Position numbers and translations under genes: made by a program
Assembly: GCA_023381645.1 (NCBI GenBank)
Contig: JAMCRJ010000061.1
Location: forward strand, 1-38,739
Reading direction: 5' to 3'
Origin: Gammaproteobacteria bacterium
GTDB lineage: Bacteria; Pseudomonadota; Gammaproteobacteria; Acidithiobacillales; Acidithiobacillaceae
Length of the DNA stretch: 38,739 bases
The notes under the pieces: model-generated
What the model saw: the letters and a program-made list of their open reading frames with translations, nothing else
What the model was told of the DNA's origin: nothing
Databases searched by the model: none
In this document: piece after piece, positions 4,463 through 22,699 of the stretch
Layout of the letters: each line of letters starts with the position of its first letter
How positions within the stretch are numbered: position 1 is the stretch's first letter

Positions 4463-5992
4463 TTGGCGGCAAGCGCAATTCATGCGACTACCCCTCCTGA
4501 ATCATCCCAAGAGCATCGTTGGCTGATCACCATCGCCTTCATGCTGGCGATGGTGATGGTCTTGTTGGACATGACCGTAGTGAGCGTGGCGCTGCCCTAT
4601 ATGATGGGAACCTTGGCTGCTACGCCGAACCGGATCACTTGGGTGCTCACCGCCTATCTGGCCGCCAACGCAGTCACTATACCATTGACCAGCCATCTTG
4701 CCGCCCTCTTTGGGCGGCGGCGTCTTTTCCTCATCAGTGTTTCCGGTTTTGTCATTGCCTCGGGGCTGTGCGGGGCGAGCCAGACTTTGGCGGAAATCGT
4801 CTTTTTACGCACCCTGCAAGGGGGATTCGGCGCGCTCATGGTGGTCTTGGCTCAATCCACCATGGTCGACCTCTTTCCGGGCAAGGAACGGGGGCGAGCC
4901 ATGGCCATTTGGGGCATGGTGCTGATGGTGGCGCCGGCCATGGGTCCGGTTTTGGGTGGCTATATCACGCAGCACATGGGCTGGCGTTGGCTGTTCTACA
5001 TCAACCTTCCCGTCGGGATTTTTTCGCTCTTGCTGGGTGCCGCCACCATGCGGGAGAGCGAAAGAAAAAATCTGTCCACCGACTGGCCGGGTCTGTTGCT
5101 CATGGCGATTGGAATCGGCTGCCTGCAAATCGTGCTGTCACGGGGTAATGAGGATTATTGGTTTGACTCCAGACTCATCGTGGCCCTGTCGATCCTCGCG
5201 GTTTTTGGTATCCTCACCTTTTTGCTGCGGGGATGGATGATCGCCGACAACATCATCAATCTCCATCTCTTTCGCGACCGCAGTTTCGCTACCGCCACGC
5301 TGATCACCGGCGTATTCGGCCTTGGCCTCTTCGGCACCACCGCCATGCAGCCGCTCATGCTGGAGGGGCTGCTGAATTACATGCCGGAAACCATCGGCTG
5401 GGTCATGTTTCCGCGCGGCGTTGCCAGCGCCGTTACCATGATGATCGTTGGGCGCTTCATCAATCGTTACCAGCCGCGACTTTTTATCGTAGCCGGGGTT
5501 TTGCTGACCGGGATCAGTACCTGGATCATGACCAGTTACAGTCTGTATATCAGTCCTGTTTGGGTCATTTATCCCGGTATTATCCGGGGGATCGGCATGG
5601 GGATGATCTTCGTGCCCCTTACCGTCATCGCCTTCGATACCCTGCCGCTTGCGGTATCGGCGGAAGCCAGCGGCATTTTCAACCTCGCCCGCACCCTCGG
5701 GAATTCCATCGGCATCGCCATCGACGGTACCGTGCTCACGAATGAGACCCAGATCAACTGGAACCAGTTGGGCGGACACATCAATACCTTCAGTGCGACG
5801 CTGCCGAATTGGCTGCAAGCCAGCGGATTGGCACCACAGGATCCTCGCGTCTGGGCATTGCTCGGTCAGACCTTATTCAGCCAGGCCGAAATGATCGGCT
5901 TCCTGGACGTGTTTCAGTGGATCACCATCATCTTCTTTTGCTTGTTACCCCTGATATTGCTCATCCCCAAGCGTATTCTTCCAACAGGTTAA
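4463..5992 (+). CDS. DHA2-family MFS multidrug exporter (EmrB/QacA type)
   Basis: 509 residues, the usual length for 14-helix proton-driven drug exporters. Diagnostic motifs are LDMTVVSVALPYM in helix 1, the loop motif LAALFGRRRLF between helices 2 and 3, and GWRWLFYINLPVG after helix 5. The start is a TTG at 4463 with AAAGGAG 8 nt upstream; no better ATG fits before the first helix. EmrB normally works with an EmrA adaptor and an outer-membrane channel, but neither is adjacent, so the substrate and partners are open. Confidence 0.92.
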   Translation: MAASAIHATTPPESSQEHRWLITIAFMLAMVMVLLDMTVVSVALPYMMGTLAATPNRITWVLTAYLAANAVTIPLTSHLAALFGRRRLFLISVSGFVIASGLCGASQTLAEIVFLRTLQGGFGALMVVLAQSTMVDLFPGKERGRAMAIWGMVLMVAPAMGPVLGGYITQHMGWRWLFYINLPVGIFSLLLGAATMRESERKNLSTDWPGLLLMAIGIGCLQIVLSRGNEDYWFDSRLIVALSILAVFGILTFLLRGWMIADNIINLHLFRDRSFATATLITGVFGLGLFGTTAMQPLMLEGLLNYMPETIGWVMFPRGVASAVTMMIVGRFINRYQPRLFIVAGVLLTGISTWIMTSYSLYISPVWVIYPGIIRGIGMGMIFVPLTVIAFDTLPLAVSAEASGIFNLARTLGNSIGIAIDGTVLTNETQINWNQLGGHINTFSATLPNWLQASGLAPQDPRVWALLGQTLFSQAEMIGFLDVFQWITIIFFCLLPLILLIPKRILPTG

Positions 5993-6211
5993 GCCGAGAT
6001 GACCGGTACGGATGGGACGAGAATGGACAGGAGGAGCGTCCGGAAGCCCGCGTTGGTGGTGCAGCTTCAGCCAGAGATCCCCGAAGCGCCACACCCGACG
6101 GTAGGCTTCGCTCTCCCAGCCGTCCACCTGATTATGGGTTTGGCGGCGCAAGGCCCAGACCGTGAGATCCAGGCGAAAGGGCGGGCGCGGCGCGAGGGTG
6201 AAAAATCCCAT
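5993..6211 (-). pseudogene. Fragment resembling the N-terminus of an AlkA-like DNA glycosylase
   Basis: On the minus strand from an ATG at 6211 the frame reads FTLAPRPPFRLDLTVWALRR and continues to about KLHHQRG. I recall this as the beginning of DNA-3-methyladenine glycosylase 2-type proteins, with their N-terminal TATA-like domain. The similarity then ends against the 3' end of the exporter gene and no glycosylase helix-hairpin-helix or catalytic Asp follows. It is therefore a truncated relic. The identification rests on memory of the family and is moderate at best. Confidence 0.4.
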
Positions 6212-6362
6212 GCTAGCGCGTCAGGTCCGGCCGATAGCTGCCTCCGGATTCTTCGAGTTCCTGCCACCATACTCCAGAAAGCCTGGAATGAACCTAAAAA
6301 AGCAGTTACGGCCCGGCCAGAGCAGGAATCGCCCCATCGGGTAACCACGGTGATTGGGTAAT

Positions 6363-7864
6363 TTAGGCGACGATGTAGCGCACGAGGAGGTCCCATGGCT
6401 GGCGCCCCAGCAACCGCTCCGCAGTCTGGCGAACCGCCCGTAAGCCTCGGCGGATATTCTCAATTCCGCGCTCGACCTTTTTCTGCGCGGCATGCATGAG
6501 CGTCAGGTAAAGCTGGGTCTGTCCAGCGTGTTTCGTGCTTCGGCCTATGGCGGACAGCAGCAATGGACGGCTGGTGATAGCCTCTCGCCGGGATTCCGGA
6601 AAGGCCAGTCGGGTATACCAGCTCCACCAGTTATACACCAGTCCCACCGCACGGGCAGAAAGTCGGCAACGCGCCAGATCCCGGGTGGTGTAGCCACCCC
6701 ACCCCCATTGATTCTTGAGTTCGTCAAAACCGTTCTCCGCATCCACCCGGTCCCGGTACATCTGCGCGATGCCCAGAATACTTTCTGTAAGATCCGTCAC
6801 CAGCACGGCGTATTCGTAGACCTTGGTCTGTCGCCGGTCCACGAAAGCAAATTCCAGTTGGCCCTGCTGTTCCTGGGTGGCGATCAGGTTTTGCTTCAGC
6901 AAACGCCGGAGAATGACCACCCGACGGCTCTGCTGCCACCCGGCCAGTTGAATACGATCCTCGCGACCTTCCCAACCCTGTCCCGCATCCACCCAGTCCC
7001 GGCGGGTAAAAACCCGCTGCAGCAGGCGCTTGACGCGGGGTGACTGACGTAATTTGAACAGGTACGGCTGCTGCCGGGACTCCATTTCCCGAATAACGGC
7101 GTCATTACCAAAACCACAGTCGCCACGGACCAGATAAGGGCGCTGTTCAGTATTCAGGGAGTCCAGTACGCGGTTCAGTCCTGGTTGGACATGGTTGGAG
7201 GCCGTGGTGTTGCCGGCCGTGACTTCCACATCCAGCAGCAGACGAGATTGCCCATCCAGTACGCGTGATAGGCGTGGGACGGACGCCCCGGTTTGTGCGG
7301 ATTGTAGCCCACTTCCGCCCCTTCCTGATGCCCGAACAAGGTTTTGATGGTGGTATCGATATCGAGAATCCAGGGCGTGTGACAGGCCGCTGTTACGCTT
7401 TTGAACAAATGCTTGCGCATCCATTCGGTCCCTTCGGCTTCGGGGATTTTCCCCAGCGCCCGGCGCAGAGCGTCTTCGCTGACGATCTTGCTCATCCCCA
7501 GGATTTAGGGACTCACGCCATCACTGCGTAATGCCGTGACGTGTGCGTAGCGTCGGTGACCTGCCAGGATGGAGAGATTCCAGGTGCCCAATACATCGCG
7601 CTTCTTCGGGGCATTGGGGCTGTTGTAGATCAAGGGGCATTCTTCTACCCAGGCATCAAACAAACCGCTGACCTCCAGAAACTCAGCAAAGAACACCAAC
7701 TGGCCAAAGGGAGTAGCGGCCGATTCCGGATCCCAGGATACCTGAACGCGACCGCCCAGTGTGTCCACGACCATGGCTTTTACTGCCGCAGGAATGGCCT
7801 TTTGCGACCGATTTTCGTCATCACCCACAGGGTGAGCCTCCATGACAATGGAAAAACCAATCAT
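6363..7864 (-). pseudogene. IS1380-family transposase, inactivated
   Basis: The reading starts at ATG 7864 and shows WDPESAATPFGQLVFFAEFL and AHRRYAHVTALRSDGV. It then meets an in-frame TAA at 7505-7507, with no frame change: the same frame continues as ILGMSKIVSEDALRRALG. Near 7245-7260 a single-base indel moves the reading from HAYWMGNL to RLLLDVEVTAGNTTASNHV, and the rest is open to 6363. The DDE-type transposase core pieces are present (DIDTTIK, GDCGFGND, the ENGFDELKNQWGWGGYT region near the end). With one nonsense codon and one frameshift it should be inactive. I could not identify clean terminal inverted repeats. Confidence 0.85.
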
Positions 7865-7954
7865 ATCAAAGATATCCTGCCAAATCAGTAGAGGTAACTG
7901 CCGAATTTAGAATAATACGCTGGTCTATCATCAATTGATTTCTGGACTGCTTCG

Positions 7955-7983
7955 TTGTCAATTGAATAAAAACTCCATATTGT
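7955..7983 (+). promoter_or_regulatory. Candidate sigma-70 promoter upstream of the RiPP locus
   Basis: TTGTCA at 7955-7960 is separated by exactly 17 nt from TATTGT at 7978-7983. Each hexamer matches the consensus at four or more positions. It points towards the RiPP precursor gene but lies 465 nt upstream, with an IS30 remnant between, so it may equally be a chance match in AT-rich DNA or a promoter for the remnant. Confidence 0.3.
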
Positions 7984-8125
7984 CATGAACGTGCAAGAAT
8001 AGGTTCATAAATGTGTAACATAACTGTGTTAGGCTTAATGCAAAATGTTAGGTTTTTGGATTAAACAAGGGCGCGCCCTAGAATGAAGTGCAACACCTCT
8101 GGTCGAAGGTAGGCGGAGGTAAGGG

Positions 8126-8370
8126 ATGGTAAGAAAATATACGCAATTGATGCCCGATCAGCAGAACCAGATTCAGCGTGGTTTAAACCAAGGTGAGTAT
8201 TCGCGGCATTGCTAGGCAGCTGGGCAGGAGTCCCAGCACGATCAGGCGGAAGATTCGGCGAGGCTGCGTGACGCACGGACTTATGATGTAATGTGCGGTC
8301 GGGAAGAGGCCCAGAGGCGACGACGCGAGGGAGCCAGAAAGTTGACTGTTTCAATTTCTGCTATTGGTTG
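8126..8370 (+). pseudogene. IS30-family transposase, N-terminal remnant
   Basis: From ATG 8126 the frame reads KYTQLMPDQQNQIQRGLNQG, the typical IS30 transposase opening, and stops at an early TAG. Shifting frame gives IRGIARQLGRSPSTIRRKIR, the family's helix-turn-helix, followed by an arginine-rich stretch. The DDE catalytic domain is missing. It is therefore a short decayed relic lying directly upstream of the RiPP precursor. Confidence 0.65.
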
Positions 8371-8448
8371 AATGGAGGGGAAATTATGAACACATAGTTA
8401 ATAGATACCATTGAAAAAATTTTACCCCATTTCTATAGGAGAAACACA

Positions 8449-8586
8449 ATGTTTAAGATTTCAGCATTTGGTAACGACGTATTCAGCAATAACATCGGCA
8501 ACGTTCGTGGCAACCGACCATTGAGTTCGAGCGGCCAGGGCGGTATATACTGCTGTTGTTGCGCAGACTGCTGCTGCTGCGGATAA
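8449..8586 (+). CDS. Thiazole/oxazole-modified microcin (TOMM/LAP) precursor peptide
   Basis: 45 residues, with a very good ribosome binding site (AGGAG, 7 nt spacing). The leader contains two overlapping FxxxB-type recognition motifs, F7-GND-V11 and F12-SNN-I16, of the kind bound by leader-binding domains in streptolysin-type systems. A Ser/Gly hinge (SSSGQGG) precedes the C-terminal core IYCCCCADCCCCG, with eight cysteines at 35-38 and 41-44. A YcaO cyclodehydratase and a flavin dehydrogenase lie just downstream, so the cysteines are expected to become thiazolines and then thiazoles. A Gly-Gly at 31-32 is a possible leader cleavage site. No function or target can be read from the sequence. 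Confidence 0.88.
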   Translation: MFKISAFGNDVFSNNIGNVRGNRPLSSSGQGGIYCCCCADCCCCG

Positions 8587-8607
8587 TGACAATTAACTAG
8601 CCTTTAC

Positions 8608-8635
8608 GTGCGGCGCTTAAAGAGCCGCACTTTTT
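8608..8635 (+). terminator. Rho-independent terminator / attenuator after the precursor gene
   Basis: GTGCGGC (8608-8614) and GCCGCAC (8624-8630) form a perfect 7-bp GC-rich stem with a 9-nt loop, followed by five T residues. It sits between the precursor stop codon and the ribosome binding site of the next gene. Partial read-through would give many precursor transcripts per enzyme transcript, as seen in other RiPP operons such as the streptolysin S operon. Confidence 0.85.
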
Positions 8636-8656
8636 ATAGTTGTAATAGGAGGATAA

Positions 8657-9523
8657 ATGAACATTTGGAATGGTGCATGTAATTTAGGTTTTTTACCGAG
8701 TGAACATTTTTTAGTAATATGGTCAGACGGATTACACTTACAAATTGACGGGCCAGTGAAAGAATTAATTAAGGAATATGATGGAGAGCTTAATATACTA
8801 GATCGGACAACAAATGGAAAATCCGAAATTGAAACCGCCGAGCTATTAGAGTCACTAAGCACTTTAGGTGTAGTTATCAAGGAAGAAGGTGAGAGGCATG
8901 ATATACAAGCGTTTAGCAAGGTTACATTTATCGTAGATGACCATAGCAAAACAGCAAACGAAGTAGTCAACACATGTATTTCACTGATGAGCCAAGAATC
9001 TTTTAAAACTACATTTTATGGCTGTGAAGTCGATGTCGTAACCCCGCAAGGATTAGATGGAATAGGAGAAAATATGCGATCCAGGTTATTTATAGCGATC
9101 GGATTAAATCCGAAAGACTTCTACAGGATTAATAAAAAATTTTCATATCAAAAAATTGAATGGATATATGTCTATTCGCCGTCATTTAATATGGTTCTTA
9201 TCAGCAACCTAACAGATTACAAAAACGGTTGCTATAAGTGCCTAAGGGGTCTTCATATTGGTAGCCTGCCACACGAGCACATGCCAATAGCTGCTAACAT
9301 AGAGAGTTGGATAGAAAATGATCAAATTCATTTAGTTAAAGTTAATGATATTTCGATAGAAGCAAAGAACCAATATTATATAGCGCTAACGTCAAGTTTT
9401 ATTCTTGTAAACATTATAAAAAAAGTAAGGAATATCGTGCATACTATTACATTTGACGATTTAGGTGTAGAGGTCAATCGTAGCGCAACCATAGCGCTTC
9501 CACAGTGTGGCTGTTGTACATAA
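8657..9523 (+). CDS. TOMM cyclodehydratase C protein (leader-binding, E1/ThiF-like)
   Basis: 288 residues with AGGAGG 4 nt before the ATG. Residues about 15-80 look like the winged-helix RiPP recognition element that binds the precursor leader (short strands, then the ELLESLSTLGVVIKEEG helix-turn). The remainder resembles the degenerate ThiF/E1-like part of SagC/McbB-type proteins. The family's structural zinc site is present as C192-x-x-C195 and C284-x-x-C287, the latter almost at the C-terminus. No ATP-binding glycine loop is evident, in line with C proteins that do not bind ATP but deliver substrate to and activate the YcaO partner. It is AT-rich, unlike the flanking core genes. Family assignment is by pattern only. 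Confidence 0.75.
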   Translation: MNIWNGACNLGFLPSEHFLVIWSDGLHLQIDGPVKELIKEYDGELNILDRTTNGKSEIETAELLESLSTLGVVIKEEGERHDIQAFSKVTFIVDDHSKTANEVVNTCISLMSQESFKTTFYGCEVDVVTPQGLDGIGENMRSRLFIAIGLNPKDFYRINKKFSYQKIEWIYVYSPSFNMVLISNLTDYKNGCYKCLRGLHIGSLPHEHMPIAANIESWIENDQIHLVKVNDISIEAKNQYYIALTSSFILVNIIKKVRNIVHTITFDDLGVEVNRSATIALPQCGCCT

Positions 9524-9526
9524 TGC

Positions 9527-9550
9527 TTTGTGGTGACAAACTTCCACAAA
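9527..9550 (+). other. Stem-loop between C protein and YcaO genes
   Basis: TTTGTGG (9527-9533) and CCACAAA (9544-9550) form a 7-bp stem with a 10-nt loop just after the stop codon. There is no following T-tract, so it is more likely an mRNA processing or stability element than a terminator. Confidence 0.4.
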
Positions 9551-9624
9551 ACCAGTGGCGACTAAGACTGTAAGCTCTTAATTACACTGTTATAGTATAA
9601 ATGAAATCAACACATGGAGGATAT

Positions 9625-10928
9625 ATGATTTTTATTAATAAGCCACAAATATATGGCATTTTCAGTGAAGCTACAATATCTAGAAAACCCTTATGGTATT
9701 CGGATATGTCTTTTGTATCTATTCAAGTAAATCCAGCCATTCGCCTAACTAATCAAAAGAAAGCGCTAAAAGATAATGCCTATAACAACGAGTCCTCAAA
9801 TTTATTCGTGCATGGGGCATTAGAAAATGGTATAGTTGGAGTGGGAAATGATTTCAACCTAGATACCGCCTATCAAAAAGCATATTCAGAAGCTGTTGAA
9901 CGAATGAGTTCTTTTCTGATGTTAGAGAAGGATATTGTTACAGAAATACCGCATAAACTAGAAGATAATGGCATTTATTATAAAATACCTCATAGTAATA
10001 TCGATAAAAATTTAATGATATCATTCACTAATGTTATCCCACTGGCTAGAAGTAAAAAAGAATCCCCGGTGTTATATCCTGCAACGCATGTTTACATGGG
10101 TGTTAGCAATCAAACTTGCTGCCATGAGTCTCTCAGTACAGGCAAGGCCGCTCATGTTTCTCAAGACAAAGCATTGGTTTCAGGCGCGCTCGAACTTGTA
10201 GAACGAGACTCATTTGTATTGTTCTGGCTTAGCAGATCAGGATTTACCGAGATTGACCATGTTAGATACTTTACTAATAAGTCTATATCTAAAATTTTTG
10301 CAGAAACCTCCAGAGCTGATATTTCGATACGGCTATATGATATTACGACAGATTTATTGGTGCCGTCAATTTTATGCTATATAAATCAATCAGCATTTCC
10401 ATATAATCTAATATCAACAGCCTCTGGGTTGACTTATGAAGACGCTATTGAACACTGTTTATCTGAAATAATGCTAGGATTAATTAGTTATACTTTGGTT
10501 ACGGAGAGTGTAATTCATGATCAGTTATTATCTTCTATAGAAAGCACTTCGGATGATGTTTCTCTTTTTCCTAATGGAGGACCTATTAGATTCCATAGTG
10601 ATTGGTATGCTTGCGATCCTGGTAAATCTGAAGCATTTGACTTTCTGAACACCAATAGGGATAAGCACTTAGCTCCATACAGAGGAACTGAATTTACCGG
10701 GTTACGTGACCTAGTCACTCACTTACAAAAAAAGGTATTAACATGTACTATAAAAATATTGACGCTAGCCATTTATCATGTGGTGGAAGATTTGTGGTAA
10801 GCGTAGTTTCACCCGATCTGGTTCCTTTGTATAATAGTGAGAGACACCGCCCTCTCGATAACCTACGTCTCATAAGAAGAATTGGAGAAAGTGGTTCACT
10901 TAATGAATGGCCGCACCCGTTCCCATAA
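9625..10928 (+). CDS. YcaO-domain cyclodehydratase (TOMM D protein), split by a -1 frameshift
   Basis: The start is ATG 9625 with GGAGG 4 nt upstream, rather than the longer frame from 9601. YcaO proteins use ATP to cyclise Cys/Ser/Thr of a precursor to azolines. Family ATP/Mg motifs are visible as SEAVER (88-93) and STGKAAHVSQ...ALELVERDSF (171-197). The zero frame runs past the expected sequence and ends at 10800 as a 392-residue product with an alien tail. The -1 frame beginning with GGT at 10734 continues as GINMYYKNID, then CGGRFVVSVVSPDLVPLY, and ends in EWPHPFP at 10928, the proline-rich terminus important in azoline-forming YcaO enzymes. The junction is exactly A-AAA-AAG, so a -1 slip gives a complete protein of about 434 residues. 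It could otherwise be a one-base loss in an A8 tract or a sequencing error. Confidence 0.85.
10728..10734 (+). promoter_or_regulatory. Candidate -1 ribosomal frameshift site A-AAA-AAG in ycaO
   Basis: In the zero frame the bases parse as A AAA AAG, the same heptamer used by E. coli dnaX. After tandem slippage the next codon is GGT at 10734, the exact frame that encodes the missing YcaO C-terminus. A weak downstream hairpin is possible (ACATG 10741-10745 with CATGT 10777-10781), but no strong stimulator is evident, and no Shine-Dalgarno-like stimulator sits at the usual 10-14 nt upstream. Confidence 0.5.
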
Positions 10929-11037
10929 ATCAAACAATGAACATTAGTTTTATATATGATAAAACGCTTTCGGTTCGGATGCATATTTTAATAAAATAAT
11001 AATTTTTACCGAGATAAAAATCTGAAGGAGATTTAAA

Positions 11038-11730
11038 TTGGATATTGGTGAGATGTTCCTACGCAATATTGGCAGACCAAATGTCAAAAGCAATATCACA
11101 ACAAGCTATGACATAGGCGCTTTTAATCAGCAATATAATGATTCTATTGTCACCCATTTGCCTGTATCTGGAGAAATTCTGGATGTGAACTTACTTCAAT
11201 GTTTAAACTCCCGTAGTTCATGCATTAACTTCGACGAAAATGACAATCTAAACGATGATGATCTAGGTTATATTTTAAAAAATGCCTTTGGTTTGGCCCC
11301 GCGTGATGGAATTGAAAAACGAGCTTATCCAAGCGGTGGTGGATTTTATCCAGTTGAAGCATACATCGTTAAAAGCAGTAATGATGGAGAACATGAGTTC
11401 TACCAGTACGACGTTAATAAGCACGCGTTGGTTTACTATAAATCCCTGTCAGAGGGGCTAATTAATAGCCATTTTACCGGAAAAACGTTGACAATTTTAT
11501 TCTCTATAAATACAGTTTATAGTAAGGCTAACTATGGTGAGTTATCTTGGCTTCTAGCTTTACTAGAATGTGGCCATCTAGCACAAAATATTTATCTAGT
11601 GTGTGCCTCTAGTGGAATAGGCTGCTGTGGCATTGGGGGCGTAAAATGGGATTTAGCTCGATCTCTCGTAGGTAAAAATCGCTACCCGGCTTACGCAATG
11701 ATCTTAGGCTATACGGCAAAGCAGTCATAA
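11038..11730 (+). CDS. SagB-type FMN-dependent azoline dehydrogenase
   Basis: 230 residues from a TTG at 11038 with GAAGGAG 7 nt upstream; the next ATG (11053) has no such site. It belongs to the nitroreductase fold: an FMN-binding RSS motif at 59-61 followed by FDENDNLNDDDLGYIL, the SagB/ThcOx signature PSGGGFYPVEAY at 98-109, and the late GIGCCGIGG and AMILGY segments. The enzyme would oxidise thiazolines made by the YcaO complex to aromatic thiazoles. At 230 residues it is near the short end for SagB proteins. It is co-directional with the precursor and cyclodehydratase genes and shares their AT-rich composition. Confidence 0.88.
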   Translation: MDIGEMFLRNIGRPNVKSNITTSYDIGAFNQQYNDSIVTHLPVSGEILDVNLLQCLNSRSSCINFDENDNLNDDDLGYILKNAFGLAPRDGIEKRAYPSGGGFYPVEAYIVKSSNDGEHEFYQYDVNKHALVYYKSLSEGLINSHFTGKTLTILFSINTVYSKANYGELSWLLALLECGHLAQNIYLVCASSGIGCCGIGGVKWDLARSLVGKNRYPAYAMILGYTAKQS

Positions 11731-11784
11731 TGATTATGAATAGTTTTCTACTCGTTTTTAAAGCTTTACCTACGGTATTTAGTC

Positions 11785-12471
11785 GTGGTTGATAGAAAGA
11801 TCTTGTCATGTATTAATGAAATGGTCTCCCAGGAGTATCCGTATTCCCGGGGAATATTACTCTCTGGAAGCCTTGCAGCTGGTACTTTTTCTGTTAAATC
11901 AGATATTGATTTGATTGTTATTACAGATCGTGACGAGCTTATTGATAGCTCCATACGTTATAAGCGCTACAATTTTGACATTGTTGGCGGTAGCATTAAT
12001 ACATTAGTGAAACTTATTCATGATGATTGCACTATTCGGCGAGGGGTTTACGCACATATGGTTGGACATTCAAAAGTTCTCTTTGAAGTAAATAATGAGG
12101 CTTCAGATCTTAGGACTTTAGCCGTATCATTGTGGGATAACGGTACAAACGTTTGCCCAAGCCATTTAAACACATATCGTGGTACAATTGATGGCATTCT
12201 TGCAAATATTAAGAACATCCATGATGACTTGGAAAAATGTATTAATATTGATGGCGAGCGTTTATATGTGACTGCAAATCTTGTTTGGGCAATGACTCAG
12301 TATATCACTCATAAAAAAGGCCGCTGGATTGGAGGCGTGGGTAAATGGCAGTTCAGACATTTACGTGAGGCAAATACTGATATCGACGACTTTGTCCAAG
12401 CTTGCTACGCATATCTATTAAGTAATGATCCGTCATTGTTGATAGATATTACTGCCAAATACATCAGTTAA
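11785..12471 (+). CDS. Nucleotidyltransferase-fold protein in the RiPP locus
   Basis: 228 residues from GTG 11785; no strong ribosome binding site, and ATG 11821 is an alternative start that keeps the catalytic motif. The Pol-beta-type nucleotidyltransferase motif is complete: GSLAAG at 28-33 followed by SDIDLIVI with Asp40 and Asp42, and a third acidic residue in YNFDIVGG (Asp65). A helical C-terminal part (about 125-228) resembles the substrate domain of MNT/KNT-type antibiotic or small-substrate nucleotidyltransferases. It could nucleotidylate the peptide product, act as self-resistance, or modify another target; none of this can be decided here. Its place between the dehydrogenase and a sulfotransferase suggests a tailoring or immunity role. 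Confidence 0.72.
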   Translation: MVDRKILSCINEMVSQEYPYSRGILLSGSLAAGTFSVKSDIDLIVITDRDELIDSSIRYKRYNFDIVGGSINTLVKLIHDDCTIRRGVYAHMVGHSKVLFEVNNEASDLRTLAVSLWDNGTNVCPSHLNTYRGTIDGILANIKNIHDDLEKCINIDGERLYVTANLVWAMTQYITHKKGRWIGGVGKWQFRHLREANTDIDDFVQACYAYLLSNDPSLLIDITAKYIS

Positions 12472-12487
12472 TTGAGAGGATAATATA

Positions 12488-13069
12488 GTGTATTTCGACC
12501 AATCTAAGCGTTTACTATTTATACACAACCCGAAAACTGGCGGTAGCTCTATTCGTCGCATACTTAGCTTGCATGACCATGGAAATGCTAGGTTTATTCA
12601 TGTTAGTACCTATGAACTTAAAGATTGCATTTTACAAGAGCTATGGGATCAATATTTTATTTTTGCGATGGTCAGAAATCCATGGCAGAGAATTGTTTCA
12701 TTATACTATTATCACCGATCAGTTGGTTATGCAAGATGGGCTGGACTAACCGATCATCATCTTTTAGCTCGTTATTATAATTTTTCTGAATGGATGGACT
12801 TTAATTTAAAACATGAAAAATCGATCTGGTTTGGTATCCCTCAAAATATATGGATAGATGGCGTTCCAAATGTGGGTATGTATGAATCATTTGATGATTT
12901 TATTTCTAGTATATGCCAGAAGTTTGATGTTGTTTATGAGAATATAGTCGTAAATAAAGGTGAGGCTGATCAGAGTACCTATAAGGATCACTTTGTAAAG
13001 CAGGAACATATTGACTACATTGGCAAAATAGACCATGTTATCATTGATAGGTTTGGTTATAGCTTTTGA
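12488..13069 (+). CDS. Sulfotransferase (PAPS-dependent, Sulfotransfer_2-like)
   Basis: 193 residues from GTG 12488 with GAGAGGA 7 nt upstream. The 5'-phosphosulfate loop is HNPKTGGSS at 13-21 and the 3'-phosphate-binding segment is MVRNPWQRIVSLYY at 61-74. Both PAPS-binding motifs are therefore intact. The protein is somewhat short but matches compact cytosolic members of the family. It starts 16 nt after the nucleotidyltransferase stop, so the two are one transcription unit. A sulfotransferase is not a usual TOMM enzyme; an attractive acceptor would be the Tyr34 hydroxyl just before the cysteine core, or a group added by another enzyme, but this is inference. Confidence 0.82.
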   Translation: MYFDQSKRLLFIHNPKTGGSSIRRILSLHDHGNARFIHVSTYELKDCILQELWDQYFIFAMVRNPWQRIVSLYYYHRSVGYARWAGLTDHHLLARYYNFSEWMDFNLKHEKSIWFGIPQNIWIDGVPNVGMYESFDDFISSICQKFDVVYENIVVNKGEADQSTYKDHFVKQEHIDYIGKIDHVIIDRFGYSF

Positions 13070-13165
13070 TTTTCTTCTGATTAGCACGGTTTTTCCGCTC
13101 TGTTTAGTATTTCCTTTTTTCGATGACACACAATCTAATGATCTTTATAGGCCAAGGGGTGTTTC

Positions 13166-14149
13166 ATGCCGATGAATCGCGTTCAGTTCCAACAAAGACG
13201 GTGTCTTCGTGTCTCACTGAGTCCATGCACTGCTTTGGTAACGAAGGGCAGTACGCCACAGCATTGGAGACCGTACAGTGGTCGGAGAGCTTTCAATGCC
13301 CGCAATGCGGTTACGTTAAATAAAACGTCCTAAAAAGTGGCTCACGCAAACTTTCAGTGCCCCTCCTGCCGACGACACCGCACTTCGCTCATTGCCGGTA
13401 CGGTGTTCCAAAGCACGCACCTTCCGCTGACCATTTGGTTTCTGGCCATCCATCTGATTAGCCAGGTTAAGACGGGCTTGTCTGCACTGGCGCTGAAGCG
13501 CCAATTGGGCGTCAGTTATCCCACAGCCTGGCGCATCCACCACAAGCTGACGCAGGCCATGGTTAAACGCGAGGAGATCTACACGCTACAAGACGAGGTA
13601 CGAGCCGACGATGCGTATCTGGGATGCGGACAGCCCTGCGGCAGGGTTAGTCGCGGGTCGGAAAACAAGGTCCCCTTCGTCGCGGCGGTCCCTCTGGATG
13701 AGCAGCATCATCCCGTCTATGCCAAATTTACGGCCATTATTGACTTCCCGCGCACTGCAGATTGGGCACAAGACTTCTTCACGCCCTACTGCACTGCACT
13801 GGCAGACGGACTCGCCCATTTCAATGGTGTCGCCGATGCATGCTGTCACCACGATGTGATGGTGGCGGGTGGCCGCAAGCCTCGGGGCCTGCCTCAGTTC
13901 TTGTGGGTCAATACCCTGCTCAGCAATCTAAAAACCAGTACCTCCGGTGCCTACCACGCTTTCAAATTCAGCAAATACACGCAACTTTACCTCTCCGTCG
14001 TGACTTACCGCTTCAATCATCGCTTCCGTCACGCCGATCTTCCGGCAAGCCTGTTCAGAGCCGCCGCCAGTGTCGCGCCTCGCTCGGAGCGATGGGGCTC
14101 CGCGCAAGAGTGTAATCGTGCTAATAACTTTTTTGAACGTGGTAATTTT
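13166..14149 (+). pseudogene. IS1595-family transposase, decayed by frameshifts
   Basis: The N-terminus MPMNRVQFQQ begins in one frame at 13166. The zinc-finger segment ATALETVQWSESFQCPQCG follows in a second frame, ending at a TAA near 13321. The first frame is then resumed with FQCPSCRRHRTSLIAGTVFQ and KTGLSALALKRQLGVSYPTAW. The DDE-like core is recognisable (VRADDAYLG, GSENKVPFVAAV, YRFNHRF). At least two frameshifts and a nonsense codon are needed, so it is inactive. The final frame stays open and runs in-frame into the outer-membrane factor gene. Terminal inverted repeats were not identified. Confidence 0.85.
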
Positions 14150-14167
14150 ATGATGGTGAGCCACGAA

Positions 14168-15619
14168 ATGCTTATGTATTTTTTTATTATTATGCGCTTG
14201 CGGTTCCCGTTAGTACCACTTCTTTTTTTGATTCCTAGCGCGAGTGCAGCGCCTCTCGACCTGCTCGTTCATGATCCTCTTGATACCCAGGGATTGGTAA
14301 AGCAACCGCTGGGACAAATCTGGCATGATCCACAGCTCAAACTCCCGCAAATTCGGCTACCCAAAGAACAGACCTTCACCAAAGCCCAAAGCCTCGCTGC
14401 GCTTACCACCTACGCCCTCGCCCACAATCCGCAAACACGGGTGGCTTTCGAGAATCTGCAGGCGTCCGCAGTGGGGCTGGGGGTCGCGGAATCGGCGTGG
14501 TTGCCGAGTCTTTCCCTCACCGACAATGCGGCCCGCTCGCAAAGTAACACCACGGCGGGTTTCAGTATTCCGATCCTCAACAGTAATTCGGATACACTGA
14601 GTTTAAGTTACGTCCTCCTCGATTTTGGACTGCGTAGCGCCCAGCGCGACGCGGCACTCGCACAGATTTATATTTCCGGGTTCAACAACAATAGCGCCCT
14701 GACCAAAGTCGCACTGACGGTGACCCAAAACTATTACCAGCTGATCGGTGAACAGGCGCTGGTACGCGCCTATGCGCAAACCGTCAAGGAAGATGAAGCC
14801 AATTTGGACGCCGCACAATTGAAACAGCATGCGGGTATGGCGACCATTGCCGATGTCCTGCAAGCCAAGTCGGCTCTCGCCCAGGCCCAGGCCCAATTGA
14901 TCTCCGCCCAGGCGACCGTGCGCTCCGATAACGGTGCGCTCGCAGGTAGTTGCGGATTGTCACCCGGCAATGCCATTCCTATTGTTCCACTCAATACCCA
15001 TCGTCTGCCTCCCCATATCACGCCTTCTGTGCACTCTCTGGTATTACATGCGACCCAAAACAACCCCAGCGTGCAGGCTGCCGCCGCCCAGATACTCGCC
15101 AGCCGCGCGACCTTACGCGAAGATCAGGCGCAAGGTTTACCCACTCTCAGCGCCTCGGTATCCGGCGGCAAACGCTTTCAGAATGGGTTGGGACCTTCCC
15201 AAAACTGGGCTATCGGCCTCAGCCTCAAAGTGCCCCTTTTTACGGGCTTTCATGATAGTTATCAGATTCAGCAGGCGCGGCGACAGGAGCGCAGCGCCCG
15301 GGCCTCACTGAACCAGGAGACCCAAAGTATTGCCTTAACGGTGTATCAGGATTATCAGACCGTCATGGGTGCGCGCTCGGCGGCAAAAGCTGCACAAATT
15401 GCGGTCAATAGTGCCCAGGCTTCGCTGGCTGCCATTCGCGCCCAATACAAGGTAGGACTTTCCACCATGCTCAATTTGCTGACTGCCCAGGCGACGCTGA
15501 CGACTGCTGAGCAGACCCGGATTCAGGACATTACAACGGCCTATGTGCAACTGGCCAATCTCGCCAACGCCCTGGGAATGATCGGACTCCCCAACACTAC
15601 AACAGGATTCCACTCATGA
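14168..15619 (+). CDS. Outer membrane factor of a tripartite efflux pump (TolC/OprM-like)
   Basis: About 483 residues. The frame is continuous with the upstream transposase relic, so the start is a choice: ATG 14168 has a GGTGAG element 7 nt upstream, while ATG 14150 and ATG 14192 are alternatives. All give a signal peptide ending PSASA-AP. The body contains two tandem OEP repeats of alternating helices and strands (for example ALAHNPQTRVAFENLQASAVGLG and VLHATQNNPSVQAAAAQILASRATL), as in trimeric outer-membrane channels. It overlaps the start of the adaptor gene by 4 nt and is the first gene of the efflux operon. The fused 760-residue reading is not believed to be real. Confidence 0.88.
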   Translation: MLMYFFIIMRLRFPLVPLLFLIPSASAAPLDLLVHDPLDTQGLVKQPLGQIWHDPQLKLPQIRLPKEQTFTKAQSLAALTTYALAHNPQTRVAFENLQASAVGLGVAESAWLPSLSLTDNAARSQSNTTAGFSIPILNSNSDTLSLSYVLLDFGLRSAQRDAALAQIYISGFNNNSALTKVALTVTQNYYQLIGEQALVRAYAQTVKEDEANLDAAQLKQHAGMATIADVLQAKSALAQAQAQLISAQATVRSDNGALAGSCGLSPGNAIPIVPLNTHRLPPHITPSVHSLVLHATQNNPSVQAAAAQILASRATLREDQAQGLPTLSASVSGGKRFQNGLGPSQNWAIGLSLKVPLFTGFHDSYQIQQARRQERSARASLNQETQSIALTVYQDYQTVMGARSAAKAAQIAVNSAQASLAAIRAQYKVGLSTMLNLLTAQATLTTAEQTRIQDITTAYVQLANLANALGMIGLPNTTTGFHS

Positions 15620-16713
15620 TGCGTTCCCTGCCCGTAAAATCCCTGTTGCTTCCCGTTGCGGCAGCCCTGATCCTGGCGGGCTGCGCCCAGCATAAGCCGC
15701 CCCACAAAAACACGGCGCTGCCCGTGGAAACTGCGACGGTGCAGACCGGCAACCTGCCCATTGTGGTCAACACCCTGGGGCAAGCAGTGGCGTCCCATAG
15801 TGTCACCATCACCCCACAGGTAAGCGGCATTTTGCAAAAGGTTGCCGTCCACTCGGGGCAAGTGATTCAAAAAGGCCAGCTTCTATTCCAGATTGACCCT
15901 GCCACACCGGGTGCTCAGGTGGCTGAAGATCGAGCCAATCTGCAGGGTGAAATCGCTCAGCAACAATATGATGACGCGCAGGTCAAGGCTTATGCGCCTT
16001 TGCTCAGCAAGGATTATGTCACCCGTCAGACGGTCCAGCAGGCACAGGCACAGGCCAACACGGCGGCCGCCACCGTGGCCGCTGATCAGGCGGCGCTGCA
16101 GGCCGCCCGGATTACCCTGGCTGAAACCCGGATTACCGCCCCCATCAGTGGTAGTGTGGGAATCCTGAGTCTCAAATCCGGTAACCTGGTCACCGCCAAC
16201 AGCACGCAACTGGTAACCATCAATCAGATTCAACCCATCTACGTGCAATTCAGTCTGCCTGAAACCTATCTCAACGATTTACATACCGCCATTAGCGATT
16301 ACTCCGGCAAGGTGGACGTCTGGGATGAGAACCATCAGACCCGGATCGGCACCGGGACGGTCACGGTGATTGATAATACCGTCAACACGGCTTCAGCGAC
16401 GGTTACGGCACGCGCCACTCTCAGTAATCAACCAGCCCGGCTCTGGCCCGGTGAATATGTGCAGGTGGATTTCACCGCTCAAGAGCTCCACCATGCCCTG
16501 ATCATTCCCGCAACTGCCTTACAGCAGGGTGTCTCCGGCTCTTTTGTCTATACCATAAAAAAAGACAAGGCTGTCATGCAGGCCGTGCAATTTTTGGGGC
16601 AGAACGGTAAGCAGGTTGCCATAGCCGGAAGCCATTTATTGGGAGACAGCGTGATTGTGGGGGCGCCGACCCGGCTTCATCCCGGTTCTGAAGTGCGCGT
16701 GATCAAGCCATGA
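15616..16713 (+). CDS. RND efflux periplasmic adaptor (membrane fusion protein), lipoprotein
   Basis: 365 residues. The N-terminus is a lipoprotein signal with the lipobox LAGC (Cys23). The usual adaptor order follows: barrel/lipoyl half (PQVSGILQKVAVHSGQVIQKGQLLFQID), alpha-hairpin rich in Ala/Gln (about 100-170), second lipoyl half (ITAPISGSVG), beta-barrel (LWPGEYVQVDF) and membrane-proximal domain. It links the outer-membrane channel to the RND pump in the periplasm. It overlaps both neighbours by 4 nt (ATGA), so the three are translationally coupled. Confidence 0.95.
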   Translation: MMRSLPVKSLLLPVAAALILAGCAQHKPPHKNTALPVETATVQTGNLPIVVNTLGQAVASHSVTITPQVSGILQKVAVHSGQVIQKGQLLFQIDPATPGAQVAEDRANLQGEIAQQQYDDAQVKAYAPLLSKDYVTRQTVQQAQAQANTAAATVAADQAALQAARITLAETRITAPISGSVGILSLKSGNLVTANSTQLVTINQIQPIYVQFSLPETYLNDLHTAISDYSGKVDVWDENHQTRIGTGTVTVIDNTVNTASATVTARATLSNQPARLWPGEYVQVDFTAQELHHALIIPATALQQGVSGSFVYTIKKDKAVMQAVQFLGQNGKQVAIAGSHLLGDSVIVGAPTRLHPGSEVRVIKP

Positions 16714-19700
16714 ACTTATCGGCACCCTTTATTCGTCGCCCCGTCGCCACAACAGTACTCGCAGTAGCCGTGGCCTTGCTGGGTTTATTTGCCTACTTGC
16801 AATTACCCACGGCTTTACTTCCCAACGTCAGCTTTCCGATGGTGATGGTCACCGCAGAACTCCCGGGAGCCAGCCCCAAAACCATGTCCAGCGCGGTAGC
16901 CACCCCACTGGAAAGGCAATTTGCCAGCATTCCCGGCCTCAACTCCATGAGTGCCGTCAGTCAAAACGGAGTGACCCAGATCACCCTGCAGTTCGATCTC
17001 AGCAAATCCCCGCTGGGTGCCACCCAGCAAGTTTCCAACGCCGTTTCCCAGGCTCAGCATTTTTTACCACCGGGCATGCCCGAGCCGCCTTCGGTCCGGC
17101 AAATGAATCCTTCGGCCCAGCCCGTTTTTTATATTGGCATGTCTGCTCCCAACATGCCGCTTTATGATCTGGACAAATACGCTCAAACCAAGGTCAGCAC
17201 GGCATTATCAGGTATATCCGGGGTATCTGACGTGCAAATTTACGGGGCGCAAACCTACGCCGTGCGCATTTATGTGAATCCTTTTGCCCTTTCTGCCCGG
17301 GGCCTGAGTCTGCAGGCCGTACAAAGCGCCCTGGGTAATGCCAACGTCAACCTGCCCGGTGGCACCCTGGATGGGGGTGATCAGGCTTTCGCCACCCAGG
17401 TACACGGTCAGTTACATACCGCAGAAGCCTACAACCATCTGGTTCTGGCCTATGAGGGCGGACAGGCGGTTCCCCTCAGTGCGGTTGGCAAGGCCGTCAA
17501 CAGTACCCAGGATAACCAACAGGAAACCTGGATCAACAAAACTCCCGGTATTGTTCTCGCTGTAACACGACAGCCAGGCAGCAATACCGTCGCCATTTCC
17601 AACAAAATCCGCGCCATGTTGCCGCAATTGCAGGCTGCCATGCCCGGCGGGGTGCATCTGACCAATGTTTTCGATTTGGCCGATTACATTCGCGCGGCGG
17701 TACACGAAGTACTGATGACCCTCATCCTCGCCAGCATTCTGGTAGCAGGCGTCATGTGGCTGTTTCTGCGCCGCCCCTCGGCCACCCTCATCGGCGCAGT
17801 CGCCATACCCCTTTCCTTGCTGGGTACCTTTCTGGTCATGATGCTGCTCGGCTTCAGTATCAATACCCTGACCTTGCTGGCGCTGACTCTTTCGGTGGGC
17901 TTTGTGGTGGATGATGCCGTGGTGATGCTGGAAAACATCAACCGACACATCGACCGGGGAGAAACCGGCATGACTGCCGCCCTCAATGGCAGCCGGGAAA
18001 TCAGTTTTACGGTCCTGTCCATGACCTTGTCCCTGTCCATCATTTTTCTTCCTCTGATTTTTCTGGGTGGCTTTGTCGGCCATTTGTTCTCGGACTTTGG
18101 GGTCAGTATTGCCGTGGTCATCCTGATTTCCGGGATGGTCGCCCTGAGCGTCACGCCCATGCTTTGCAGTCGTTATCTCAAACCCAATCACGCCCATACC
18201 CCGACCGACCTGCACGATACCGGTCACTTGCCTGAAGACGGGATTTTTCAGCGATTTTTCAAGGGCAGTCGCGATTTTTATATTCGCACCCTGAAAGTTG
18301 CCTTGCAGCACAAATACTGGATGCTGGCCCTGGCTGGACTTTCACTGGCGGGTAGTGTCTGGCTGGTAATGATTGTTCCCAAGGCTTTTTTACCTAGCCA
18401 GAACTCGGGAATGATCAATGCCAATATTGAATACCCTACCGGGATGACCTTTGCAGAAGTCAGCCATGAGCAGTCAGAAATCGCCCGGGTGGTGAAATCC
18501 AATCCACGTATTCAATCGGTGGTGTCTTCTGCTGGACAAGGGCCCGGCGGTTTCGGTAGCAGCACTTCGGGACACATGTTTATTCACATTCGCAATGGGT
18601 ACGCGCCAGAAACGGAAGAAATCATCGAGGATCTCAACCGTGCCACACAGGGCTTCCACAATGCCCAGGTTGTATTCCAAGGACCACAGAGCGCCCACTC
18701 AGGTACCGCGAGTGATAATGGCAGCTACGTTTATGAACTCATTGGCAACAACTGGACCGACCTCAACGCCGCCACCCTGAGAATGACCGCAGCGCTACGC
18801 CGTTTGCCGCAACTCAGCTCCGTCAGCAACAGCCTGCAAAACAATAACCCCCAGGTGGCCATCAAAATCAACCGGCCCTGGGCCACGGCCCTCGGCGTTA
18901 CTCCGGCCGCCATTGAAAACACCCTCGGTCTCGCCTTCGGTGGCCATGAGGTAGGAACGATTTATGGTGCCAATGACCAATATGAAGTCATTATGGAACT
19001 CGAACCCCGCTATCAACACAACATCAATGCCCTCTCGACCCTCAGCGTAGCAGGGGCTGGGGGCACGCTGGTACCGCTCTCGGCGGTGGCAGAATTTCAT
19101 TACGATGCCGCTCCCCTCACCCTGATGCAACACAACGGTCAGCCCTCAACCACGATCTCCTTCAATCTCGCGCCGGGGGCCAACCTCGGCCGCGCCATTT
19201 CCGCACTGCAGAGTAAAGCCAAGGACATATTGCCCGCCGGGATCGCCGGCCATCTGGGCGGCACTGCGGCGCAATTCCAGTCCGCTTTCAAATCGTTGCC
19301 ATTTTTGTTGTTGGCCACCGTACTGCTCATTTATGTAGTGCTGGCCATTCTCTACGAGCATTTTCTGCATCCTCTGACCATTCTGACCGCCTTGCCCCTG
19401 GCGGCTTTCGGAGCCTTGCTGTCATTGGTTATTTTTAACGAGCCCCTCGAGTTGTACAGCTTCATCGGCATCATCATGCTGCTCGGGCTGGTCAAGAAAA
19501 ACGGCATCATTCTCGTCGATTTTGCGGTCAGTCGCCGTCGCGAAGGCGCCAGTGCCTATGAGGCCATCGTCGATGCCTGCACAATCCGCTATCGCCCCAT
19601 CATGATGACCACTTTTGCCGCCATCCTTGGTGTACTTCCCATTGCCATCGGCTTTGGCGCCGGCGCAGATAGCCGGGTACCCTTGGGCATCGCCGTAGTC

Positions 19701-19814: not shown

Positions 19815-19839
19815 ATAAGTTGACGACAGGAGGGGATTG

Positions 19840-20559
19840 ATGTTTCCTTTAATGGTAGATAGATTGAGTTTTAAATACAATGAAAGGGATCCATGGGTAT
19901 TGAACGACTTGTCTTTTTCCCTGTCATTTGATTCCGGAATTACAGGACTTATAGGACAAAATGGATCTGGGAAAAGTACATTAATTAACTGTTTATCCGG
20001 TGTCCTTCATTCTCGTGTTGGCAGCATTACCTATTTTGGCAAGTCGGCAGGGACTATAATGGCCAAACGACAAATCGGAGTCAGCTTTCAGAATATCGAA
20101 TTTCCAGCAAATCTAAAAGTTCGAGAAATCATTGGAGCAATCTTTACCATTCGAGGATTGCAAGTAAGCTCCCTGGATATCGCCCGGTGGGCGGACGACT
20201 TTCTGCTCAGCGATGTTCTGAAAAAGAATGCTCGGAATCTGAGTGGTGGACGCCAAAAAATGCTAGCCAATTTGCTTGCTTTGGCTTGGGAACCAGCGAT
20301 ATTACTGTTGGACGAGCCTAGTGCCGGATTAGACTTCGATGCGCGGGAATGTGTTTGGCGACATTTGCAAGCGGCACGCCAACGACGTGCAATAGTATTA
20401 ATAGCATCACATACCTATGAAGAACTTACATGTCTCTGCGATGGGATTATCCTGCTGGATAAGGGGCACATTGCTGCTCAAGAACAGTTGAATGGTGTCG
20501 ATAACTCCGTCATTTTGCAAGAATTCAAAACAACCTTGAAGCGAGGTATTTATGTTTAA
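19840..20559 (+). CDS. ABC transporter ATP-binding protein (ABC-2 exporter type)
   Basis: 239 residues from ATG 19840, with AGGAGG 6 nt upstream; a TTG immediately before it is a poorer start. Walker A is GQNGSGKST at 39-47, the signature is LSGGRQKML and Walker B is ILLLDEPSAGLD, then the H-loop in IASHTYEE. All are intact, so it should hydrolyse ATP. It overlaps the first permease by 8 nt. It is AT-richer than the RND genes just upstream and closer to the RiPP genes in composition. By analogy with SagG of the streptolysin S cluster it could power export of, or immunity to, the modified peptide; this is inference from proximity. Confidence 0.9.
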   Translation: MFPLMVDRLSFKYNERDPWVLNDLSFSLSFDSGITGLIGQNGSGKSTLINCLSGVLHSRVGSITYFGKSAGTIMAKRQIGVSFQNIEFPANLKVREIIGAIFTIRGLQVSSLDIARWADDFLLSDVLKKNARNLSGGRQKMLANLLALAWEPAILLLDEPSAGLDFDARECVWRHLQAARQRRAIVLIASHTYEELTCLCDGIILLDKGHIAAQEQLNGVDNSVILQEFKTTLKRGIYV

Positions 20560-21277
20560 AAGAAATCTGGCATTACTAGCTATTATTATCTTACCTAGAT
20601 GGAGACGTAGGCAATATTTTATTTATGTTTTTATTATCCCTCTTATAGTTTTTCTTGTTTCTATGTTCGAAAGGCATGTGTCACCTAATGGAGTACTCTA
20701 CATCAGTTTGCTCATGGCATTAATAGGTGTTATTGTTGGCGCTCTGTTTAATGGTATACGGGTTTTTGGCCTTGTTCCAGATTATCACGGGCTATTACAG
20801 ACGCTCCCAATTTCACAATTGCGTATATTTTTTACGCGGTTAATTACAGTGCTTATCGATGTCCAGTTATCCATAATAATTATTTTATTTGCTGCATTTG
20901 TTGGATGGCACATAGCACTCAACTTGCCTCTATTGTGGCTTTATGAATCATTAGTCTTGAGCATGGCCATCATCATGATTGCCGTTGGCGTTATAATTGC
21001 TCGACTGGCAGGTACTTCATCGGCAGCGATGGCTTGGGCACGAATTGTCCTGTTTTCTATTTTTTTTCTTGGGGGTGGGGGCTATGTTTTCTCTTCAGCG
21101 TTTCCTCCCTTCATCGCCACGCTACAACGCTATTTGCCAACGGGAATCATGCATGCAGAGATTGCCAGCATAGTCCATGGTAGCGGAATTGAAGCGATTG
21201 ACATAGTCATGATGGGGTTATGGCAAGTCGTCCTTGTCGGTACTGCTTTATTGCTTCCTACAAAATGTAGGATCTAA
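20552..21277 (+). CDS. ABC-2-like transporter permease, first subunit
   Basis: 241 residues with about six hydrophobic segments (for example FIYVFIIPLIVFLVSMF, LYISLLMALIGVIVGALF, SIIIILFAAFVGWHIAL and a C-terminal helix). It starts within the end of the ATPase gene, a strong sign of a functional pair. No enzymatic motif is present. It fits a SagH-like role but the family cannot be fixed from sequence by eye. Confidence 0.75.
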   Translation: MFKRNLALLAIIILPRWRRRQYFIYVFIIPLIVFLVSMFERHVSPNGVLYISLLMALIGVIVGALFNGIRVFGLVPDYHGLLQTLPISQLRIFFTRLITVLIDVQLSIIIILFAAFVGWHIALNLPLLWLYESLVLSMAIIMIAVGVIIARLAGTSSAAMAWARIVLFSIFFLGGGGYVFSSAFPPFIATLQRYLPTGIMHAEIASIVHGSGIEAIDIVMMGLWQVVLVGTALLLPTKCRI

Positions 21278-21319
21278 CGTGTATTCTTCCTTTTCTATTT
21301 CTTATAGAGTCTTTCTATA

Positions 21320-22036
21320 ATGCTACCTTTTATTTCATTACTGATTTTGGAAATACTCGGTACCCTGCGATCCAAATCAATGCTCCTCCCGATACTACTT
21401 TATCCTAGTATACTGTATTTCTCTTTACAAAGCGCTAATGTAGTGGCAATAAAAGATGAAGGCTATCTGTTTGCGGCGATACTGGGTTTGACTGTCGCCT
21501 CTGGTTGCTTTATGACTAGTTTCAGTGACCAGCAAAATGGGGGTTGGAATCGATATTTGTATAGCTTGCCCTGCCACCCTATAACTATTATTTTGGCCGA
21601 GCGTAGCGCGCAATGGCTGTTAACTGAATTGTCTATTATTATACTTGTTGTCTCGGCCTACATCGGCTTCTCTCCAATTTTAAATCTGATGACATTAGTG
21701 CTGCTCAATGTTGTGTTGCTTATAGCCTCCTCCCCTTTTTTCTTTCTAGCTGTTGTTCTGCGCGCACGATTTGGTGCGGGGGCTTTCCGCGTGATTGCAC
21801 GTATTCTTCCTATGCTGTTTCTGCTAAATCTTGTGCTGGCGCATGTTAAAGGCGGCAGTTCCCTCCCGAGCGAGATAACCCGCTGGTCACCATTCAATAG
21901 CATCTTGCAACTAGGGTGGAGTGTGGTTGGTGGCTTTCCACCATCGGCGCAGAGCATATTTCCTTTGTTGTATCTATGGTTTTTGGTCGCTCTTTTGTCG
22001 GGGGAGGGAGTTTGGCGGCACACTAAGGCTAATTGA
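21320..22036 (+). CDS. ABC-2-like transporter permease, second subunit
   Basis: 238 residues, about six membrane segments, 42 nt after the first permease. The ATG at 21320 lacks a clear ribosome binding site, so a nearby alternative start is possible. It is similar in size and topology to the preceding permease, suggesting a heterodimeric channel with the upstream ATPase. It is the last gene of the apparent efflux/ABC operon before the tRNA gene. It would correspond in position to SagI if the transporter belongs to the RiPP system. Confidence 0.72.
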   Translation: MLPFISLLILEILGTLRSKSMLLPILLYPSILYFSLQSANVVAIKDEGYLFAAILGLTVASGCFMTSFSDQQNGGWNRYLYSLPCHPITIILAERSAQWLLTELSIIILVVSAYIGFSPILNLMTLVLLNVVLLIASSPFFFLAVVLRARFGAGAFRVIARILPMLFLLNLVLAHVKGGSSLPSEITRWSPFNSILQLGWSVVGGFPPSAQSIFPLLYLWFLVALLSGEGVWRHTKAN

Positions 22037-22649: not shown

Positions 22650-22699
22650 GCCCTCACGCTCGCTATGGAGCGCAAACAGCGAATATGGAGGAGGGGTCG

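Follow-up and report, generated by a model that had tools for sequence, protein, structure and literature searches.

We identified a gene set in Acidithiobacillus ferrooxidans that quite probably forms a genuine, uncharacterised cluster for a thiazole/oxazole-modified microcin (TOMM), situated on an island gained by horizontal transfer, with a 45-residue peptide as its precursor and a mechanism as proposed below. The whole stretch of DNA analysed, 38,739 nucleotides in length, is called the window. In it, a small frame with eight cysteines stands before genes for a C protein, a YcaO enzyme (D protein) and a SagB-type dehydrogenase (B protein), in the order which a preliminary description had given (enzymes at 8657-9523, 9601-10800 and 11038-11730). 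That description had missed that the YcaO frame is broken in the window assembly, that the C protein matches no curated family and that a nucleotidyltransferase and a sulfotransferase gene lie downstream. The TOMM reading is drawn from the simulations, ribosome-binding site and hairpin of the small frame, from the family ties of the YcaO, C and B proteins and from the gene order of a TOMM locus in Alkalihalophilus pseudofirmus OF4; the low-GC island and two database relatives (P0003 and P0005) whose genes probably travel together also point to it. Counting against it are the truncated YcaO of the window, a B protein without the expected Lys, a precursor gene which is not low in GC, the lack of a precursor homologue, a C-protein model with a mean pLDDT of 36 and the absence of a significant BLAST match of the C protein to McbB or to its OF4 counterpart. 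The features were as follows.

8437..8441, + strand: AGGAG resembling a Shine-Dalgarno site, 7 nt upstream of the precursor ATG, read directly from the sequence
8449..8586, + strand: putative TOMM precursor, 45 aa, with a leader (about residues 1-32) and then the core IYCCCCADCCCCG (translation, simulations)
8608..8635, + strand: hairpin with five U after it, a candidate leaky terminator that would divide the precursor from the enzymes (-14.5 kcal/mol, z -1.70)
8657..9523, + strand: C protein (E1-like, McbB-type by fold and profile comparisons), 288 aa, with paired Cys motifs GCYKC and CGCCT
9601..10800, + strand: YcaO (D protein), broken frame, 399 aa, C-terminus lost (PF02624 E 1.7e-23; comparison with genome G001)
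11038..11730, + strand: SagB-type dehydrogenase (B protein), 230 aa (TIGR03605 E 1.2e-18, 67.2 bits, below the cut-off of 78.4)
11785..12471, + strand: nucleotidyltransferase of 228 aa, by position only a candidate for tailoring or immunity (PF01909 E 8e-6)
12488..13069, + strand: sulfotransferase, 193 aa, possible Tyr-sulfating tailoring enzyme by position only (PF03567 E 1.1e-7)
19837..20559, + strand: ATPase of an ABC transporter, 240 aa, which may serve export or immunity (McbF 26% over 206 aa, E 9e-20)
20552..22036, + strand: two membrane proteins, 241 and 238 aa (second, ABC2_membrane_5 E 8.7e-6; first, no family)

Direct translation of 8449-8586 (+) gave MFKISAFGNDVFSNNIGNVRGNRPLSSSGQGGIYCCCCADCCCCG*, bearing out the description of a 45-residue frame with eight cysteines. 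All of these lie in the core IYCCCCADCCCCG, which has the pattern Cys4-Ala-Asp-Cys4, 8 Cys within 13 residues, and a single Tyr adjoining the first Cys block. The leader carries two FxxxB motifs, known as leader-recognition motifs (PMC10634744); both had been described as overlapping, and both are present, but they are adjacent (F7-V11 and F12-I16). Gly-Gly stands at residues 31-32, and the leader is probably cleaved after it. The peptide thus has the FxxxB leader and the Cys/Ser/Thr-rich core of a short TOMM precursor, and there is good support for reading it as a TOMM precursor next to its C, D and B enzymes. The Cys codons are a mixture of TGC and TGT in the first block and TGC throughout the second, and the GC3 of the gene (0.565) is not low, unlike that of the enzyme genes (0.28-0.34). 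The hairpin at 8608-8635 is G+C-rich, and 9 of 200 shuffles folded equally well; it was absent from the output of a consensus terminator scan. Such a hairpin would fit a higher expression of the precursor than of the enzymes. The gene had also been called too short for routine gene calling, and this was supported by the protein database, where the precursor's cluster represents 1 contig and the cluster of the C protein beside it represents 62, indicating that the small gene is usually missed.

The C protein is tied to McbB and LynD, and to TOMM C proteins, by comparisons of predicted fold and of profiles. Even at E 10, none of the NCBIfam models matched it; Pfam gave just one chance-level match (E 0.065) and no curated family. 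Foldseek against PDB, with a model built from two sequences (mean pLDDT 36; such models can yield meaningless matches), gave 4 matches at E ≤ 0.001, namely two LynD chains (4v1t/4v1v) and two chains of the McbBCD complex, with TM-scores of 0.23-0.28 by query length and rmsd of 13-16 A. The latter chains, named '2', were taken as McbB because chains C and D are McbC and McbD. The next matches were the unrelated ExoVII and a sugar isomerase (1.5e-3 to 3.4e-3) and TruD (E 4e-3). In hhalign, comparison with 7 TOMM C sequences gave a score of 48.05, P 7e-6 and a probability of 84%, centred on the paired Cys motifs; the best of 50 column shuffles scored 22.44 and the reversed alignment 19.15. Of the seven, two were C proteins encoded separately and five were long frames cut to their first 400 residues; each of these pieces includes the region of the family, one with its end clipped. 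Against just two of the seven sequences the match was weaker (probability 28%, P 6e-4). BLAST of the C protein against McbB and against the OF4 C protein was not significant, and when PDB sequences were searched with the alignment of the C protein, only chance-level matches came up. An E1-like C protein was therefore recognised through hhalign and Foldseek (the latter with a poor model), outside any curated family. Within residues 9-69, a predicted strand pair and helices fit a RiPP recognition element, at pLDDT below 50.

The B protein bears on the oxidation state of the putative product. It is 31% identical to McbC over 151 aa (E 7e-13), and its family likeness to SagB-type dehydrogenases lies below the TIGR03605 cut-off. 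We take Lys201 and Tyr202 to be essential in McbC, and the Lys-Tyr motif to be catalytic. At this position the window protein has Asn165-Tyr166, so that Tyr is kept and Lys is replaced by Asn; the Lys-Tyr motif of an FMN dehydrogenase, a protein which is optional in TOMM clusters, is thus missing although the family likeness is there. Among 33 other SagB-type proteins, which were the best 30 loci among the matches listed, McbC and two other plasmid proteins, the residue was Lys in 30, His in 2, Leu in 1 and Asn in 0; the 33 probably include some non-TOMM proteins. The preliminary description had proposed a product with two runs of contiguous thiazoles. This was not supported by the B protein, and oxidised thiazole runs cannot be assumed because Asn replaces Lys in the dehydrogenase. 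A fully aromatised product, with two blocks of four thiazoles, is doubtful, with some points in its favour: the cluster has a SagB-family gene that is similar in other respects, Lys163 lies two residues before Asn165 and might substitute for the missing residue, and 3 of the 33 compared proteins also do without Lys. Opposed to it are the Asn at a site where 30 of the 33 have Lys, and the KYGERAYR segment of other B proteins, of which R, Y and R are changed too in the window protein, though a Streptococcus salivarius protein with part of those changes (ELS) retains its Lys. As judged from these sequences, thiazolines or partial oxidation would be as likely as contiguous thiazoles.

The YcaO gene is broken in the window. 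Its likeness to PF02624 is above the cut-off and that to TIGR03604 (E 1.9e-26) below the curated cut-off, and the true start is likely 9625, which is preceded by GGAGG. In G001, a related genome, the protein has 442 aa from the same start and ends in PHPFP, an end also present in two YcaO relatives at 57% and 54% identity. The break comes from a poly-A run whose length differs by one base between the window and G001, which agree there in every other respect, and the window gene, at 399 versus 442 residues, is broken either truly or by assembly error. A D protein is thus present, intact in G001 and truncated in the window. The second one-base difference, at about 23181, is also in an A run and has the opposite effect: the gene at 22685-23251 is complete in the window but carries a frameshift in G001, so a homopolymer error is plausible in either assembly. 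A database YcaO of A. ferrooxidans (P0004) has a different, shorter C-terminus and represents a second altered version. The window's own copy of the cluster may be non-functional. It is conceivable, though unlikely, that the cluster is decaying, that is, a real TOMM system whose product is no longer made in some or all A. ferrooxidans strains. The broken frame of the window, the shortened C-terminus of P0004, the B protein without Lys and the IS1595 element and RND operon lying between the enzymes and the ABC genes would agree with decay. However, all five enzyme frames are intact in G001, and two one-base differences in 19.6 kb without substitutions, one breaking a gene in each genome, fit assembly error equally.

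The TOMM cluster lies on a low-GC island. Between 8.0 and 13.0 kb the GC content in 1-kb windows is 34-43%, whereas to the left of 8 kb it is 51-61% and to the right of 22 kb 53-67%; GC3 of the five genes from C protein to sulfotransferase is 0.28-0.34, against 0.61-0.69 in the host-like genes measured. A transposase gene lies left of the island (6363-7424), and broken frames upstream of the precursor (8120-8350) resemble a transposase remnant, which we take to be IS30-like. PADLOC reported nothing for the nucleotidyltransferase, the sulfotransferase or the C protein, and sulfation of the core Tyr is a guess from gene position. An IS1595 element and a TolC-HlyD-AcrB (RND) operon, of host-like GC, separate the TOMM cluster from the ABC genes; one long frame (13337-15619) fuses the IS1595 transposase with a TolC-type protein, and the efflux gene probably starts inside it. 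The ABC ATPase has a GC3 of 0.39 and together with the two membrane proteins spans 0.37-0.46, whereas the intervening genes have 0.61-0.65. The ATPase and the two membrane proteins may be the original exporter; the likeness of the ATPase to McbF is not specific, because 188 NCBIfam models match it too, and the two membrane proteins gave no significant match to McbE. Further right, at 22194-22503 on the minus strand, a tRNA-Ser(UGA) is split within the anticodon (35/36) by a 220-base insert. It was found only with the intron option of ARAGORN, the default run giving no tRNA, and the insert matched no intron family in Rfam. Among 54 related genomes, 16 match across the insert (including G001, all in the same family, and one clipped at a contig end), and in at least 11 other genomes of the family of G001 the two halves directly abut. 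The insert resembles a mobile, self-splicing intron, putatively group I-like.

By database searches the cluster is rare. The window shares 100% of sampled words with G001, and a YcaO database entry named Acidithiobacillus ferrooxidans was identical over the aligned 94%. Window and G001 differ over 5259-24883 (about 19.6 kb) by 0 substitutions and two one-base differences, both in A runs, while both flanks of this segment carry substitutions, suggesting a recent exchange of a segment including the TOMM island. The C protein was found in 1 of 57 related genomes, which is G001, and the protein database held one other relative (P0003, 45%). For YcaO the same database, searched in a way that reaches only proteins sharing exact five-residue words, gave P0005 (57%), P0006 (54%) and then P0007 (27%). 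The last was aligned as well, but the alignment taken into further searches did not include it. P0003 and P0005 each have a longest contig of 30,413 bases, so their genes are probably neighbours. The YcaO alignment matched one genome among 31 from the order (E ≤ 1e-15), one among 369 from the class (E ≤ 1e-20) and two among 398 from the phylum (E ≤ 1e-12); these samples overlap, and G001 was among the matches each time. The second phylum match (G410, E 6e-13) belongs to a different TOMM cluster; in this other member of the phylum, loci L126, L132 and L155 form a separate cluster with C, B and YcaO proteins. Scans of genome_contigs with two short patterns each, for the C protein and for the YcaO alignment, confirmed 0 of 88 and 0 of 62 stretches. 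The C protein was not found in plasmids or viral contigs, nor the cluster DNA in plasmids.

Rather improbable is a product that serves as a metal-binding thiazoline/thiol peptide (metallophore or metal buffer) and not as an antibacterial. A. ferrooxidans lives in metal-rich, acid habitats; this, the density of cysteines (eight within 13 residues) and the possibility that the B protein leaves thiazolines unoxidised would suit such a role. On the other side, no metal-uptake receptor or regulator occurred among the island proteins scanned, which represent part of the frames, and thiazolines tend to reopen in acid. The putative product of the TOMM cluster may have an antibacterial role.

That the small frame arose by chance, or encodes an unmodified Cys-rich peptide unconnected with the enzymes, is hardly credible: its GC3 is unlike that of the enzyme genes and the protein-database and further homologue searches found no precursor homologue, but frames that are 25-100 residues long and have 8 or more Cys among their last 15, of which the real window has 1, were absent from all first-order Markov simulations (0 of 150 for the whole window, 0 of 600 for the 5.1-kb island), and the position, Shine-Dalgarno site, hairpin and FxxxB motifs of the precursor argue in the same direction. 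A weaker criterion (at least 8 Cys/Ser/Thr in the last 15) separated less, with 5 frames in the real window against a simulated mean of 1.08. The Cys4-two residues-Cys2 DNA pattern has a single occurrence in the G001 genome. In viral contigs the exact core pattern had 0 matches, and the looser Cys4-two residues-Cys4 pattern was matched in at least 120 stretches, where other frames match too. PDB searched with the precursor gave hydrophobin matches only (E 1.3 and 3.4).

Among known systems, microcin B17 (mcbABCDEFG, on E. coli plasmids) likewise has a separate precursor, an McbB-type C protein, a SagB-type dehydrogenase and a YcaO protein. The functions of the mcb genes have been described (PMC10912980), McbB, McbD and McbC being the C, D and B proteins (PMC4979651). 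McbC and McbF share 31% (over 151 aa) and 26% identity with the B protein and ABC ATPase of the window. However, the gene order is precursor-C-B-D in microcin B17 and precursor-C-D-B in the window, the McbA core is Gly-rich with spaced Cys/Ser in place of two Cys4 blocks, and McbC has Lys201 where the window protein has Asn. Both leaders contain KxSxFG; a microcin-B17-like leader was rejected, since 195 of 2000 shuffles scored as high, and the peptide does not combine an McbA-like leader with a Gly-rich core. No McbG-type pentapeptide-repeat protein occurred among the window proteins scanned with Pfam (a subset of the frames), and BLAST of the three ABC-operon proteins against McbG gave no significant match. 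The plasmid TOMM of A. pseudofirmus OF4 (L150) has the same order as the window, with a 46-aa small gene, C, YcaO and SagB; its YcaO is 24% identical over 398 aa and its B protein 33% over 136 aa. Its C protein is not significantly alike by BLAST, its small gene has one short Cys run (AGCCCGGG), unlike the 4+4 core, and no sulfotransferase is among the features listed. Cytolysin TOMMs (the streptolysin S group) have contiguous heterocyclisable residues and B, C and D enzymes. In contrast, the window core has runs of four divided by Ala-Asp, and so lacks the Gly followed by at least 10 potentially heterocyclised residues common to the cytolysin cores identified in PMC4603692. The same study catalogues nearly 1,500 TOMM clusters, and its main text contains neither Acidithiobacillus nor ferrooxidans. 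In the literature searched, Acidithiobacillus, TOMM and YcaO occurred nowhere together, and no A. ferrooxidans TOMM was among the matches listed; PMC9734747 has Acidithiobacillus 11 times and LAP, TOMM and azol 0 times.

In the TOMM cluster proposed here, the C protein would bind the precursor leader, probably at F7-V11 or F12-I16, and present the core to YcaO, which, using ATP, would cyclise some or all of the eight Cys to thiazolines. The SagB-type protein may then oxidise some thiazolines to thiazoles, the missing Lys making a thiazoline-rich or mixed product plausible. After probable removal of the leader behind Gly-Gly, the product would be exported, possibly via the ABC transporter at 19.8-22.0 kb. 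Going further, we would propose, quite speculatively, a new TOMM family of extreme acidophiles, whose product is a 13-residue peptide with two symmetric four-thiazoline (or mixed thiazoline/thiazole) blocks and a Tyr sulfated by the adjacent sulfotransferase; its oxidation would stay incomplete because the SagB-type protein, having lost the catalytic Lys, is mainly structural within the synthetase.

The cluster offers one peptide with its enzymes, open to testing, in an iron-oxidising mine bacterium well known from bioleaching. Its core is all-cysteine in a 4+4 arrangement, its C protein falls outside the family models scanned, and its dehydrogenase is without the expected Lys. Such a set could reveal to what extent contiguous cysteines can be processed by YcaO synthetases, and whether a SagB protein that lacks Lys there performs oxidation, scaffolding only, or something else. 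It also illustrates how a precursor is overlooked in the protein database, with 1 contig against the 62 of its neighbour.
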